From positions 62,001-126,000 of the forward strand of contig JAEURN010000008.1 in assembly GCA_016789105.1 (NCBI GenBank): DNA of 64,000 bases, given 5' to 3'. The translations under genes and the position numbers were made by a program. The notes below the pieces were generated by a model. That model was not told the origin of the DNA. It did not search any database and saw nothing but the letters and a program-made list of their open reading frames with translations. This DNA comes from Armatimonadota bacterium. GTDB taxonomy: Bacteria > Armatimonadota > Fimbriimonadia > Fimbriimonadales > Fimbriimonadaceae. How positions within the stretch are numbered: the first letter of the stretch is position 1; the number at the start of each line of letters is the position of its first letter. Positions 2,423 to 45,842 of the stretch are shown here, one piece after another.

Positions 2423-3472
2423 ATGCCCCGGTTCCAGATCGACACCGACTACCTTGCATCGGTGTTGGAAGACCTCATCAACACCCCCAGCCCAACCGGG
2501 GACACCGCGTGGGCGGTTTCGTTTGCCCAAAACGAACTCGAGAGCCTGGGGGCTACGACGTTTGTCACCCCCAAAGGTGCCTTGGTCGCCCAATACGAAG
2601 GGCTCAAAGACGACCGGCCCCGCGCCCTCAGCGCCCATGTCGACACCCTCGGGCTCATGGTCGCCGAAATCAAAGCCAACGGCCGGCTCCGGGTTTCGGC
2701 CCTCAACGGCATCATGTGGCCGACGATCGAAAGCGAAGGGGTCACCATCCAAACCCAAGCGGGCAACGGGATCAGGGGCAGCGTGGTCTTTGTCAACGGA
2801 GCCGCCCACGTCAACCGGGAGGCGACAACGGCCGCTCGGAACGCAGACAACCTTGAAATCCGGATCGACGAACGGACCAACTCCGCCGAAGAAACCCGGC
2901 TGCTGGGAATCGAAGTCGGGGATTTCGTCTATCTCGACCCTCGGTTCGAAAAAAGCAAATCCGGCTTCATCAGATCCCGGTTCTTGGACGACAAAGCCTG
3001 TGTCGCCTGCCTGATCGCCGCCCTCAAAGCCCTCCACCAAGCCGGGGTGAGCCCGGCCCAAAGAACCCACATCCTCATCAGCAACTACGAAGAAGTCGGG
3101 CACGGCGGCATGGACTCCTTGCCCGCCGACCTGCACGAATACCTGGTGCTGGACATGGCGGTTGTGGGCAACGGGCAGACCGGTTCCGAATCCCACTGCA
3201 CCTTGTGCGTGAAAGATTCCAGCGGGCCATACAGCAAGGAACTGAACCAGAAGATCATGGCGGTAGCCAGCCGGGCCGGGATCGACTTGAAGCGGGATAT
3301 CTACCCTCACTACGGCTCCGATGGAAGCGCCTATTGGCGGAGCGGGGGGACGGCGAGGGTCGGGCTCATTGGCCCCGGGGTCGACACGTCCCACGGTTAC
3401 GAGCGCACACACATCGACGCCCTCAAAGACACGGCCCAACTGATTGCCGAATATTTGATCGAAGAAGAGTAA
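2423..3472 (+). CDS. M42 family metallopeptidase (glutamyl aminopeptidase/FrvX-like)
   Basis: A cytoplasmic dinuclear-metal aminopeptidase of the M42 family, whose members form large dodecameric shells that trim peptides. Family motifs are in order: AHVDTLG (His72, Asp74), LDDK (Asp189/190), NYEEVGHG (Glu223/224), LDMAVVG (Asp244) and a C-terminal THID histidine. Length (349 residues) is normal. No signal peptide. The ATG is fixed by a -10 hexamer six bases upstream. It lies divergent to the pilin gene and ends at a hairpin shared with the converging WD40 gene. Confidence 0.93.
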   Translation: MPRFQIDTDYLASVLEDLINTPSPTGDTAWAVSFAQNELESLGATTFVTPKGALVAQYEGLKDDRPRALSAHVDTLGLMVAEIKANGRLRVSALNGIMWPTIESEGVTIQTQAGNGIRGSVVFVNGAAHVNREATTAARNADNLEIRIDERTNSAEETRLLGIEVGDFVYLDPRFEKSKSGFIRSRFLDDKACVACLIAALKALHQAGVSPAQRTHILISNYEEVGHGGMDSLPADLHEYLVLDMAVVGNGQTGSESHCTLCVKDSSGPYSKELNQKIMAVASRAGIDLKRDIYPHYGSDGSAYWRSGGTARVGLIGPGVDTSHGYERTHIDALKDTAQLIAEYLIEEE

Positions 3473-40112: not shown

Positions 40113-40676
40113 TCACCAAACCCGGTTGCCCCCGCTGAGTTCCAGCCACCGCTCCCGGGTGAGCACCGTTTCGTAGTGGTCGCGGAACATTCCCCTTTTC
40201 CAAAACTGTTTAGGGATGCACCCCACCGGCAAATATCCGGCCCGTTCGTTCATAACCCGGCTGCCTTCGTTGCCTTCGATGTAGCCACTGGTGACCAATC
40301 GCAACCCCAAAACATGGAAGCAATACCAGGCCCTGAGCTTGCTGGCCTCAGTACCCAAGCCCTTGCCCCGATGACCGGGATCGCCAATGTAGCTCCCCGT
40401 GGATGCAAAGCCGTGCCGGTGATTGATGCCGTGGATCCCGCTTGTGCCGATGTGGGTGCCATCGAGCAATTCGATGGCGAAAACAACATTTGACTCTGAC
40501 CCTTTGAGGCAGGAGTCGAACCACTCCCGCTCGGCAACTTCACCCATCGGGAAATCCCCCACAAGGATCCATTCGTTCACGTCAGGGTCGTTCACCCAAC
40601 GGCAGATATTCTTAAAATGCCTTTCCGCATCCATCGGCACAAGCCGGATGCGGCCGCCTTCCCATCCGGTAGCCAT
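40113..40676 (-). CDS. GNAT family N-acetyltransferase (RimJ/RimL-like)
   Basis: A 187-residue acetyl-CoA-dependent acetyltransferase. The N-terminal WEGGRIRLVPMDAERHFKNICRWVNDP is typical of RimJ/RimL, and the CoA site GDPGHRGKGLGTEASKLR (Q/RxxGxG/A type) is near residues 96-113. Later ARNxxS-like region NEGSRVMNERAGY matches. Substrate could be an N-terminal amino acid, spermidine or another small amine; unknown. Transcribed away from the structured RNA upstream. Confidence 0.88.
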   Translation of the reverse strand: MATGWEGGRIRLVPMDAERHFKNICRWVNDPDVNEWILVGDFPMGEVAEREWFDSCLKGSESNVVFAIELLDGTHIGTSGIHGINHRHGFASTGSYIGDPGHRGKGLGTEASKLRAWYCFHVLGLRLVTSGYIEGNEGSRVMNERAGYLPVGCIPKQFWKRGMFRDHYETVLTRERWLELSGGNRVW

Positions 40677-40734: not shown

Positions 40735-40779
40735 AAACAAAAAGCACCGGCTGAGAAGGAGAGGACAGATCTCAGCCGG
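40735..40779 (-). terminator. intrinsic terminator of a possible small RNA
   Basis: On the minus strand CCGGCTGAGA and TCTCAGCCGG form a perfect 10-bp stem with a 13-base loop, followed by TGC and TTTTTGTTT. The loop contains CCTCTCCT, complementary to a Shine-Dalgarno sequence. No coding gene ends just upstream. Confidence 0.7.
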
Positions 40780-40928
40780 CGAATTGCGTTGGTGTGGTTC
40801 ACTTCTTCCGAGTCACTCACACCGTTCAAGACGGGTGATCTGCCCGGACGTCTTCCGAGTATCAGAATTGGCAGAAATCCGCAATTCTCAAGGGCATACC
40901 GCCAAAAGCCGGTAACTCCTGCAGGATC
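40735..40928 (-). ncRNA. putative structured small RNA (no known family assigned)
   Basis: Between the lpxB terminator and the one at 40735-40779 there is no coding frame, but three further hairpins can be drawn on the minus strand: AGAATTG/CAATTCT (7 bp, 40864-40888), AAGACG/CGTCTT (6 bp) and GGTGTG/CACACC (6 bp). ACTCGGAAGA occurs twice (40804-40813 and 40851-40860 on the minus strand). The 5' end and promoter are not identified. It could be a stand-alone RNA or a leader with an attenuator for the GNAT gene. Confidence 0.4.
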
Positions 40929-40963
40929 AAAAAAAAGTGCGGGGGGCTTGCCGGCCTCCCCGC
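40929..40963 (-). terminator. intrinsic terminator after lpxB
   Basis: Reading the minus strand, a G+C-rich hairpin (GCGGGG..GGC, loop CGGCAA, GCC..CCCCGC at 40939-40963) is followed by AC and eight T residues. It is a textbook rho-independent terminator 117 bases after the lpxB stop codon. Confidence 0.8.
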
Positions 40964-41079: not shown

Positions 41080-42156
41080 CTAGGCCATTTCCCGGATCAG
41101 CCGGGCCGTCTGGTCCAGGGCGTCGGCGGGCCCCAGCAGGGATCCGAGTTCGTCGAACCCGGCAAGTTGGTCTCGGCGGGCCAGACCATCCGGCAACAGG
41201 GCGGTGACGGCCTCCCGGATCGCCGCAGGGGATGCATCCCATTGGATGAGCTCGGGCAGCAACATGCGCCCAAGCAGAATGTTCGGCAGGCTGATGAAGT
41301 CGAATTTCGGCCGGCGGATCCGGTATTCCAGCTCCATGGCTTTGCCCCCCCGGTAAACCACAACTGTGGGACAGCCGCACAAGGCGCTCTCCAGAGTCGC
41401 GGTTCCGGAACAAACAATGGCGGCCTCGGCCGATTTAAGAAGGGGATACAAGTCTGGTTCTGCTGTGGCCACCAGCGGGCTGTGCCGCCCCCATAGGGCC
41501 AAAAGTTCTGGGGCAGAAACATTGGGCGCGCAACTCAGCCGGATCCGGCCGGCAAAACCTTCCAACGCCTTGGCCACCGCGGGGACGTTGTTTTCCACCT
41601 CATGCAACCGGCTGCCCGGAAGCACCGCAATACCGGAGCGCGGGCCTTCAGGGGAACCAGATTCGGCGACCATCTGCTTAAGCGGATGCCCGAACCAATG
41701 CACGCTGGCCCCCATGCGCCGCAAAATTTCTGCACTCCACGGGAACGGGGTCACGATCTCGTCGGCCACCTGAGGGAGGTCGGCTCCCTGCTTGTCGCGC
41801 CGCCAGCTCCCAGGAGGGCTGAAATAGAGCACCTTCCACCCCATGGCCTTGGCCTGCCGGGCAAGCCGGATGTTCATGTATCCGAAATCAACCGGGACAC
41901 AAACCCCTGGGGTGCCTTGGGCTAAGGCAGAAAGCGCAGAGTAGTACCCTCGGCGGATCCGGGGAGCTACCTTGAGGCTCTCATATATGCCAATCGCCCC
42001 CCAATCTCGGTTGCTGGCCACCGCCTGCACGCCGGCGGATTCCCCTTTGGCCCCGACAATCCCCTGCATGACCACACCGTCCTCCGCCAATCGCGCGGCC
42101 AGGGCCGCCACGTAGGCGTCCCCACTAGCCTCGCCGGCCGAGAAAAAGAGGCGCAT
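41080..42156 (-). CDS. lpxB: lipid-A-disaccharide synthase
   Basis: Glycosyltransferase (GT19) joining lipid X and UDP-diacylglucosamine in lipid A synthesis at the inner membrane. The N-terminus LFFSAGEASGDAYVAAL is the family signature. Later motifs include VPVDFGYMNIRLARQAKAMG, VLPGSRLHEVENNVP and CSGTATLESALCGCPTVVVYRGG, which bind the nucleotide sugar. 358 residues, slightly short. ATG at 42156 is favoured over ATG 42183 because TATTTT ends seven bases before it. Its presence argues for an LPS-type outer membrane. Confidence 0.94.
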   Translation of the reverse strand: MRLFFSAGEASGDAYVAALAARLAEDGVVMQGIVGAKGESAGVQAVASNRDWGAIGIYESLKVAPRIRRGYYSALSALAQGTPGVCVPVDFGYMNIRLARQAKAMGWKVLYFSPPGSWRRDKQGADLPQVADEIVTPFPWSAEILRRMGASVHWFGHPLKQMVAESGSPEGPRSGIAVLPGSRLHEVENNVPAVAKALEGFAGRIRLSCAPNVSAPELLALWGRHSPLVATAEPDLYPLLKSAEAAIVCSGTATLESALCGCPTVVVYRGGKAMELEYRIRRPKFDFISLPNILLGRMLLPELIQWDASPAAIREAVTALLPDGLARRDQLAGFDELGSLLGPADALDQTARLIREMA

Positions 42157-44768: not shown

Positions 44769-45038
44769 TTGGGGGACAGGTTGCCTAAACTTCTTGGCGG
44801 CCTGTTTGCGTTCGCTGCCCTCAGCGTCTGCATCCTAAACCGAATCGATCCATGGACGGCCACCGTCCGTGGATTGTTGGCCTTTGCCGCCGGGCACATT
44901 GCCGGATCGATCTGGGAAGGACTCTTTGGAGCCCCTGCCGGCAAAGTGATCGAAGCCGATGCATTGGACGTGCAGAGTCGGCAAGAAGCCGATCCCGCCG
45001 ATGGCGGAGACCAGGTTGGAGAGGAAACCGCAGCATAA
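44769..45038 (+). CDS. small membrane protein, unknown function
   Basis: An 89-residue protein with two hydrophobic segments (LLGGLFAFAALSVCIL and GLLAFAAGHIAGSIWEGLFG) and an acidic C-terminal tail (DALDVQSRQEADPADGGDQVGEE). The TTG at 44769 or at 44781 may be the start; both give plausible membrane proteins. It lies 21 bases before a sigma factor, which suggests a membrane component of the same regulatory unit, such as an anti-sigma-like partner, but nothing in the sequence proves that. Confidence 0.5.
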   Translation: MGDRLPKLLGGLFAFAALSVCILNRIDPWTATVRGLLAFAAGHIAGSIWEGLFGAPAGKVIEADALDVQSRQEADPADGGDQVGEETAA

Positions 45039-45059: not shown

Positions 45060-45842
45060 ATGGCCCTTTCACCGGAAACGTTGCAACGCACTTGGATCGA
45101 ATACAAGGTCTACAAAAGCCAGGATGCCCGGGTCGAGCTGATCAACCATTACAGCTACCTGGTCAAGATCACCTCGGGCCGGCTGGTCACCAGCGTCCCT
45201 CAAGGGTTGGATCGCGACGACCTGGTTTCGGCCGGCGTGATCGGCCTCATCAAAGCCGTCGACCAATACGACCCGACCCGCGACGTCAAGTTTGAAACGT
45301 ATGCCATCGCCCTCATCCGTGGCGCCATCTTGGAAATGCTCCGGGACGAGGACTGGGTGCCCCGGTCGATTCGCGAAAAGCTCAAAGCCCTCGACAAAGC
45401 GCAAAAGGAATTGGAAAAGGAATACGGCCGCCCCGCTTCGCAACGGGAGCTCTCCAACTTCATGGGCATGAGTGAGCAAGAAGTCAGCGACTTGCTGGTC
45501 CGCGTCGGCAAAACCAACGTCTACAGCTTGGACGACGTCGTCGGCGGATCCAGCGACGGCGACGACCACATCCACTTTATCGAAATGATCGTCGACGGGG
45601 ACGCCGACACCGAAGGACAGATGGACGGAAAGGAACTCCGCCGCGTGATGTCCGCAGGAGTCGACCGGCTCCCGGAACGGGAACGGCTCGTCATCGCCCT
45701 CTACTACTTCGAAGGTTTGACCTTCAAAGAAATTGGCAAGGTGTTGGGGGTCAGCGAAAGCCGGGTCTACCAACTCCACACGCAGGCAATGGGGCGCTTG
45801 CGCAACTTCCTCAAGGACGAAGGCATCCCGCACGTGGCGTAA
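45060..45842 (+). CDS. FliA/WhiG-family RNA polymerase sigma factor
   Basis: A group 3 sigma-70 factor, 260 residues. Region 2 covers residues 20-95 (DARVELINHYSYLVKITSGRL, DLVSAGVIGLIKAVDQYDP, FETYAIALIRGAILEMLRDEDW), region 3 follows (VPRSIREKLKALDKA, PASQRELSNFMGMSEQEVSDL), and region 4 is LPERERLVIALYYFEGLTFKEIGKVLGVSESRVYQLHTQA. It recognises promoters for motility or development in other bacteria. There is no flagellar gene nearby. A small gene with a ribosome site follows 22 bases downstream. Confidence 0.93.
   Translation: MALSPETLQRTWIEYKVYKSQDARVELINHYSYLVKITSGRLVTSVPQGLDRDDLVSAGVIGLIKAVDQYDPTRDVKFETYAIALIRGAILEMLRDEDWVPRSIREKLKALDKAQKELEKEYGRPASQRELSNFMGMSEQEVSDLLVRVGKTNVYSLDDVVGGSSDGDDHIHFIEMIVDGDADTEGQMDGKELRRVMSAGVDRLPERERLVIALYYFEGLTFKEIGKVLGVSESRVYQLHTQAMGRLRNFLKDEGIPHVA

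Follow-up and report, generated by a model that had tools for sequence, protein, structure and literature searches.

The minus strand of the window (the whole 64,000-nucleotide stretch of Fimbriimonadaceae DNA analysed here) encodes, on the sequence evidence, a real and previously uncatalogued RNA gene at approximately 40857-40735. The product is probably a trans-acting antisense small RNA of the Hfq class that is transcribed from a gene of its own and belongs to a multi-copy Fimbriimonadaceae family, with a proposed link to a sigma-28-type factor and with PEP-CTERM genes as candidate targets. In the mechanism we propose, a FliA/WhiG-type sigma factor would transcribe the RNA from its own promoter, the loop UGUCCUCUCC would pair with purine-rich Shine-Dalgarno (SD) regions (AGAGGA to GGAGAGGACA) and this pairing would block translation. 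The mRNAs of PEP-CTERM/exosortase surface proteins would be the main target class, so that an active motility-type sigma factor would, through the RNA, reduce surface-protein synthesis.

The initial annotation had placed a non-coding segment on the minus strand between the terminator of lpxB and a second terminator, and the sequence bears this out. The lpxB terminator has the arms GCGGGG (40963-40958) and CCCCGC (40944-40939) followed by eight T residues (40936-40929), and terminators of the same kind with different stem sequences are found in the relatives L003, L005, L006 and L008. Beyond it lies a gene-free interval that is closed by a second hairpin, in which 40781-40770 pairs with 40756-40745 around a loop of 13 nt, and by a T run. 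A generic terminator scan, in which loop length is limited to 8 nt, for that reason detected neither of the two minus-strand terminators. Homologues of lpxB were present in 104 of 111 genomes. The GNAT gene begins 3' of the T run of the RNA, at 40676. A TATAAT/TAAACT-like box lies about 5 nt upstream of this start in the window and in the relatives L004-L007, and such a short distance to the start codon suggests that the GNAT mRNA may be leaderless.

The interval first assigned to the RNA (40735-40928) was too long, and the likely transcript is the shorter one listed in Table 1. The 5' part of that interval (approximately 40928-40875) showed no blastn conservation beyond the window's own genome, and the gene was trimmed to about 120 nt for this reason. 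A palindrome, CCTGCAGGA, at 40917-40926 was rejected as a feature of the RNA since it belongs to the varied upstream region.

Table 1. Features of the small RNA locus and neighbouring genes (positions in the window)
Feature	Position	Strand	Basis or remark
Predicted small RNA transcript, about 120 nt	40735..40857	-	Promoter motif and terminator positions, onset of conservation in the genus, fold; 5' end estimated
Predicted promoter, CTTGAG-N14-GCCAATT	40866..40892	-	De novo dyad EM; leave-one-out PWM score 10.1
5' hairpin	40807..40848	-	Shape kept in the genus; RNAalifold on 6 members with compensatory changes; MFE
Unpaired A/C-rich linker with CACACCAACGCAA	40782..40806	-	Conserved alignment block
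Terminator hairpin, 12-bp stem and 13-nt loop	40745..40781	-	Covariation: A4 9/12 pairs, A6 12/12
Invariant loop core TGTCCTCTCC, proposed antisense seed	40758..40767	-	Pairs with GGAGAGGACA
T run 3' of the second hairpin	40739..40743	-	Sequence
lpxB intrinsic terminator	40929..40963	-	Upstream boundary of the RNA gene; read from sequence
lpxB (neighbour)	41080..42156	-	TIGR00215 133 bits, under its 190 cut-off
GNAT acetyltransferase (neighbour, separate gene)	40113..40676	-	PF13302 68 bits
FliA/WhiG-family sigma factor gene	45060..45842	+	TIGR02479 238.5 bits, cut-off 189.6; candidate sigma factor

The interval has a more stable fold than most shuffled sequences: the full 194 nt folded at -70.6 kcal/mol compared to a shuffle mean of -58.0 kcal/mol (z -2.87), and 1 of 200 shuffles did as well. 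The shorter transcript gave a z of -2.30 (5 of 200 shuffles as good). Ten relatives folded singly gave values from -4.07 to -0.37, with an identical terminator hairpin in all of them. By blastn against 101 genomes, the window's own included, conservation covers at most the 3' two thirds in six members of the same genus, and in genera further away it covers the terminator hairpin and its loop; no common sequence is evident in the 5' parts of the distant copies.

Covariation among relatives, suggested earlier as a check on the RNA, was strong. In alignment A4 (10 sequences, MAFFT), which was made without reference to structure, 95% of the cells were paired and 9 of the 12 pairs changed on both sides, a result that none of 500 shuffles equalled. 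The larger alignment A6 (50 copies) was 92.1% paired and had both-side changes in all 12 pairs, with 176 double-change cells versus 53 in shuffles; these counts lean towards the covariance model because the alignment was fitted to it. RNAalifold on six members of the genus predicted 27 pairs in the two helices together, 8 of them with double changes, including compensatory changes in the 5' hairpin. Sequences of the genus, when aligned, differ by indels of 1, 2 and 4 nt, which argues against a conserved reading frame. The view that this structured RNA stands outside the known families also held, as none of 4227 Rfam families matched anywhere in the 64-kb window at the gathering score. An Rfam identity at permissive E-values was rejected, the matches there being local and at chance level (the best, to an lncRNA model of no evident relation, scored 15.1 bits).

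The C-rich loop to which the initial annotation drew attention proved to be the most conserved part of the family. The 13-nt terminator loop carries UGUCCUCUCC; its core 10-mer was complete in 44 of 50 aligned copies and TCCTCTCC was kept in 49 of the 50, while the stems vary. The anti-SD-like sequence reported in the terminator stem, CCTCTCCT, is present at 40764-40757 but lies in the loop rather than in the stem proper. The loop is a constrained unpaired segment, as looked for in the seed of a trans-acting small RNA.

The distribution of the RNA was determined with two covariance models, R1, built from the ten A4 sequences, and R2, a second model. R1 brought up additional copies; its matches scoring less than about 29 bits are in part due to chance, as with L095, L097, L099 and L102. 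With R2 at E 0.01, the RNA was found in 38 of 85 Fimbriimonadaceae genomes and in 18 of 32 genera, and 22 of the 38 genomes had 2-4 copies. More than half of the family genomes gave no R2 match at this threshold and none of the 20 genomes of genus g20 gave one; the searches used Infernal's stricter filters, and an absent match in an incomplete genome does not prove absence. Among 113 genomes of the order, matches at E 0.1 or better outside the family were limited to two genomes (0.015 and 0.038). An exact 19-base piece was found in nine database records, among them Armatimonadetes bacterium Uphvl-Ar1 and Fimbriimonadaceae bacterium ACE_ARM8; three of the nine were from unrelated taxa and were taken as chance. 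The RNA family is multi-copy and occurs almost only in Fimbriimonadaceae.

Comparison of genomes with and without the RNA gives moderate, statistical support for the proposed pairing of the loop with SD regions, for the block in translation that would result and for PEP-CTERM/exosortase genes as the main target class. Within the genus, a search for the nine-base loop complement found 18 matches, the reversed control found 10, and no target was conserved among orthologues. In the 85 genomes, GGAGAGGACA-N1-8-ATG occurred at 42 sites among the matches listed, 27 in RNA-bearing genomes, where three are simply the RNA's own antisense strand, and 15 in RNA-less genomes, compared to 6 and 8, respectively, for the reversed control as counted from the rows listed. 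Translations were made for 33 of the 42. Six of the eight frames longer than 100 aa that opened at a full complement in RNA-bearing genomes were PEP-CTERM proteins, five above the Pfam cut-off and one at 16.0 bits against 20.7; the other two were cysteine synthase-like and malate dehydrogenase-like, names that were read from the sequence. None of the five such frames in RNA-less genomes was a PEP-CTERM protein.

PEP-CTERM matches at E 1 numbered 36-69 per genome in 12 RNA-bearing genomes. The sample examined consisted of the best-scoring matches listed, 110 loci from 12 RNA-bearing and 90 loci from 12 RNA-less genomes, which yielded 113 and 100 gene rows, respectively. Genomes were labelled by R2 with a threshold of E 0.01; weak matches occur in G049 and G025 (E 0.015), and G011 and G060 were classed as RNA-bearing by weak matches only. 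At least 6 nt of loop complement lay in the 22 nt before the start in 37/113 PEP-CTERM genes of RNA-bearing genomes compared to 11/100 in RNA-less genomes (Fisher p 1.4e-4, in a gene-level test that is pseudo-replicated, the genera being few and related and phylogeny weakly controlled). An alternative start rule gave 34/105 versus 7/93, and the loop complement preceded 5 of 239 genes of other kinds in RNA-bearing genomes. Shuffled loops reached the 6-nt count in 30 of 2000 trials for the RNA-bearing set and in 651 of 2000 for the RNA-less set. Of the 12 PEP-CTERM genes from the window's own genome 7 matched, five of the seven by the minimal 6 nt; G014 (1/14) and G002 (2/13) showed little signal. 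The genus-level target test gave p values of 0.11 (fraction) and 0.059 (energy difference), and the mean loop duplex energy did not differ between RNA-bearing and RNA-less genomes (p 0.39). With few related genera, these genus-level values, equal duplex energies and the results for G014 and G002, we keep PEP-CTERM genes as a working hypothesis for the target class.

It is quite possible, if somewhat short of an even chance, that the same RNA acts through its loop on a broad set of SD-led mRNAs or on a few unrelated ones, and that the PEP-CTERM signal reflects no more than these genes being SD-led, unlike most others in the genomes, together with lineage-specific drift of the SD sequence. The genus-level p values are in keeping with this, and SD sequences were rare before non-PEP genes of the same DNA under the start rule used (AGGAG in 4/239), so PEP-CTERM genes dominate any count based on them. 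Yet PEP-CTERM genes of RNA-less genomes are SD-led too, and it is the form of the SD that differs. Canonical GGAGG preceded 23/100 of them and AGGAG 30/100, compared to 6/113 and 12/113, respectively, in RNA-bearing genomes, whereas GAGAGGA, which is complementary to the loop, was found before 1/100 and 11/113. A further-reaching version of the reading we prefer is doubtful at present: that a multiplying RNA family driven by FliA/WhiG has a terminator loop that co-evolved with the ribosome-binding sites of PEP-CTERM/exosortase genes, so that motile cells would shut off many surface proteins at once, and RNA-less lineages would have canonical SD sequences before these genes.

The RNA appears to have its own promoter, of a sigma-28/WhiG-like type, and the upstream sequences give this good support. 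For this analysis 52 of 73 listed matches were used, 16 matches that scored under 29 bits having been removed along with four near-duplicates and L089. The dyad motif learned from the 52 upstream regions was CT(C/A)AAG-N14/15-(G/A)CCGA(T/A)A, that is, CTnAAG-N14/15-GCCGAnA, with a log-likelihood of 87.2 (80 restarts); six shuffled sets, each given 40 restarts, reached 51.5-63.8. Leave-one-out scoring found the motif at 8 bits in 29/52 regions compared to 10.6% of random window stretches and 7/52 on the reverse strand, evidence that is partly circular because the PWM was built from sites at the same loci. Of 34 sites with at least 7 bits, 26 sit 81-109 nt upstream of the linker. The consensus for sigma-28/SigD/WhiG factors is TAAA-N15-GCCGATAA, which the learned motif resembles. 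When the literal sigma-28 consensus was scored, after the motif had already been spotted by eye, 19/52 copies had at least 9/12 matches (shuffled mean 7.4, maximum 13 in 60 sets; reverse strand 5). The window copy agrees well with the family motif and poorly with the literal consensus. A generic sigma-70 scan found nothing at the RNA locus, and the regions upstream of the copies showed no evident enrichment of sigma-70 hexamers (7/52 with at least 9/12 matches, a count that has no shuffle baseline).

A sigma factor of the matching kind is encoded in the window itself, 4 kb from the RNA. This FliA/WhiG gene is the candidate for driving the RNA, a proposed functional link. The sequence GGAGAGGA at 45018-45025 was discounted as a target of the loop, being in the end of the upstream frame, 34 nt before the FliA/WhiG ATG; a feedback site for the sigma gene is possible there but unsupported. 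L092, L098, L101 and L103 belong to a subfamily in which most copies have a GTACCTCTCC-like loop. Upstream of their hairpins, CTnAAG/GCCGA is replaced by a GTCAC(A) box that precedes an AATAGA/AATAAC-like element by about 20 nt, perhaps another promoter or an activator site. Uphvl-Ar1, a Microcystis-associated carrier of the RNA, is reported to be likely motile with complete flagellum pathways, unlike Fimbriimonas ginsengisoli (PMC5629041), for which a non-motile phenotype and one fliA are described (PMC4072686).

The regular company of a promoter-like motif at a fixed distance also bears on whether the hairpin might be a recurrent terminator cassette, its loop serving as a protein-binding or transcription-termination signal with no antisense role. 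What is conserved is indeed the terminator hairpin with its loop, and the 5' parts of distant copies have no evident sequence in common. However, terminators seldom have a loop as long as 13 nt, termination should depend little on the sequence of the loop, and GTCCTCTCC occurs once in the 64-kb window. We regard the cassette as improbable.

The RNA is still less likely to be a fragment of the lpxB 3' UTR or a 5' leader or attenuator of GNAT, although it lies between these genes in the window and at eleven further loci. Eighteen RNA loci are directly behind lpxB (a nineteenth, L100, is a doubtful match). In G002, however, the RNA is 24 kb away from lpxB, and in G021, G031, G038, G046, G052 and G103 neither lpxB nor GNAT adjoins it. 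A conserved lpxB terminator precedes the RNA, and in the relative L006 a TATAAT box stands immediately 5' of the GNAT ATG. Because the RNA is found behind lpxB in some genomes and elsewhere in others, we consider it a gene of its own and not an lpxB tail or GNAT leader, and the earlier concern that it might be merely part of the GNAT messenger is answered in the same way. Flanking terminators, copies away from the neighbours and frame-breaking indels mark it, as far as sequence can, as an independent unit of 50-300 nt.

Several copies deserve separate mention. The window's own genome has a second one at G000:C4:478362-478416, next to a probable tRNA (judged by eye); this copy (L079 1563-1611) has no good match to the promoter motif. 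In G052 (L068) three copies lie within 1.7 kb (1509-1568, 1691-1749 and 3159-3221), which suggests local duplication. At several copies (L045, L047, L050, L080, L082 and L093) GCCTGG commonly comes after the T run and may be typical of terminators in the clade as a whole.

The repeat ACTCGGAAGA reported in the initial annotation does occur twice (40860-40851 and 40813-40804), but it is probably not functional, since the pair is common to only part of the genus, copy 1 straddles the predicted 5' end and copy 2 contributes to the 3' arm of the 5' hairpin. A sponge for a CsrA-type translational repressor, for which the GGA within this repeat might speak, is scarcely credible given the limited occurrence of the repeat and an invariant loop without GGA.

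Assignment of the RNA to the Hfq class has good support from three features taken together, an hfq gene, a U-tailed terminator and the A/C-rich linker. Hfq (PF17209) was present in 57 of 61 genomes, and each of the 37 family genomes searched had it; in the window's own genome it lies at G000:C4:507327-507518 (99.7 bits). The terminator hairpin and T run seen in the sequence could provide a tail for Hfq, and the linker with CACACCAACGCAA is a possible Hfq-binding stretch.

Comparison with known systems indicates a genuinely new RNA family of a known kind, namely a multi-copy, C-rich-loop and probably Hfq-class antisense RNA. The C-rich motifs of LhrC RNAs pair with SD regions, and RNAs of the Cuckoo/CcsR type have a C-rich anti-SD motif in a hairpin loop and are under RpoH-type control. 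The LhrC family of Listeria (PMC4132741) is, like the Fimbriimonadaceae RNA, present in several copies per genome; it differs in phylum, in having several C-rich sites per RNA and in its two-component control, and the sequence relation was compared via Rfam only. Cuckoo/CcsR of Rhodobacter and other C-rich-loop small RNAs also occur in tandem or multiple copies, but these are alphaproteobacterial, and the Fimbriimonadaceae RNA has no Rfam match. UhpU, MotR, FliX and FlgO of E. coli are Hfq-linked and under a FliA-type sigma factor, which was shown there and is only proposed here; they derive from UTRs and have flagellar, lrhA and ribosomal mRNAs as targets, whereas the present RNA is free-standing and has other proposed targets (PMC10578931). 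Small RNAs coupled to the FliA-dependent flagellar cascade, as we propose, are described in Campylobacter jejuni, where they target flagellar genes (PMC11187230). Searches for Armatimonadetes with small RNA and for Fimbriimonadaceae with sRNA found no description of a small RNA in titles and the opening of abstracts, and those for PEP-CTERM with small RNA or Hfq found no report of post-transcriptional control of PEP-CTERM/exosortase proteins.

The links to a motility sigma factor and to PEP-CTERM genes, unproven as they are, make up the interesting part of the finding. For Armatimonadota, the family offers a conserved riboregulator that can be put to the test, one with a precisely defined seed and with candidates for both its sigma factor and its class of targets. 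Should the proposed targets prove right, PEP-CTERM/exosortase proteins would be under post-transcriptional control, and SD sequences would here follow a small RNA in a clear-cut way.
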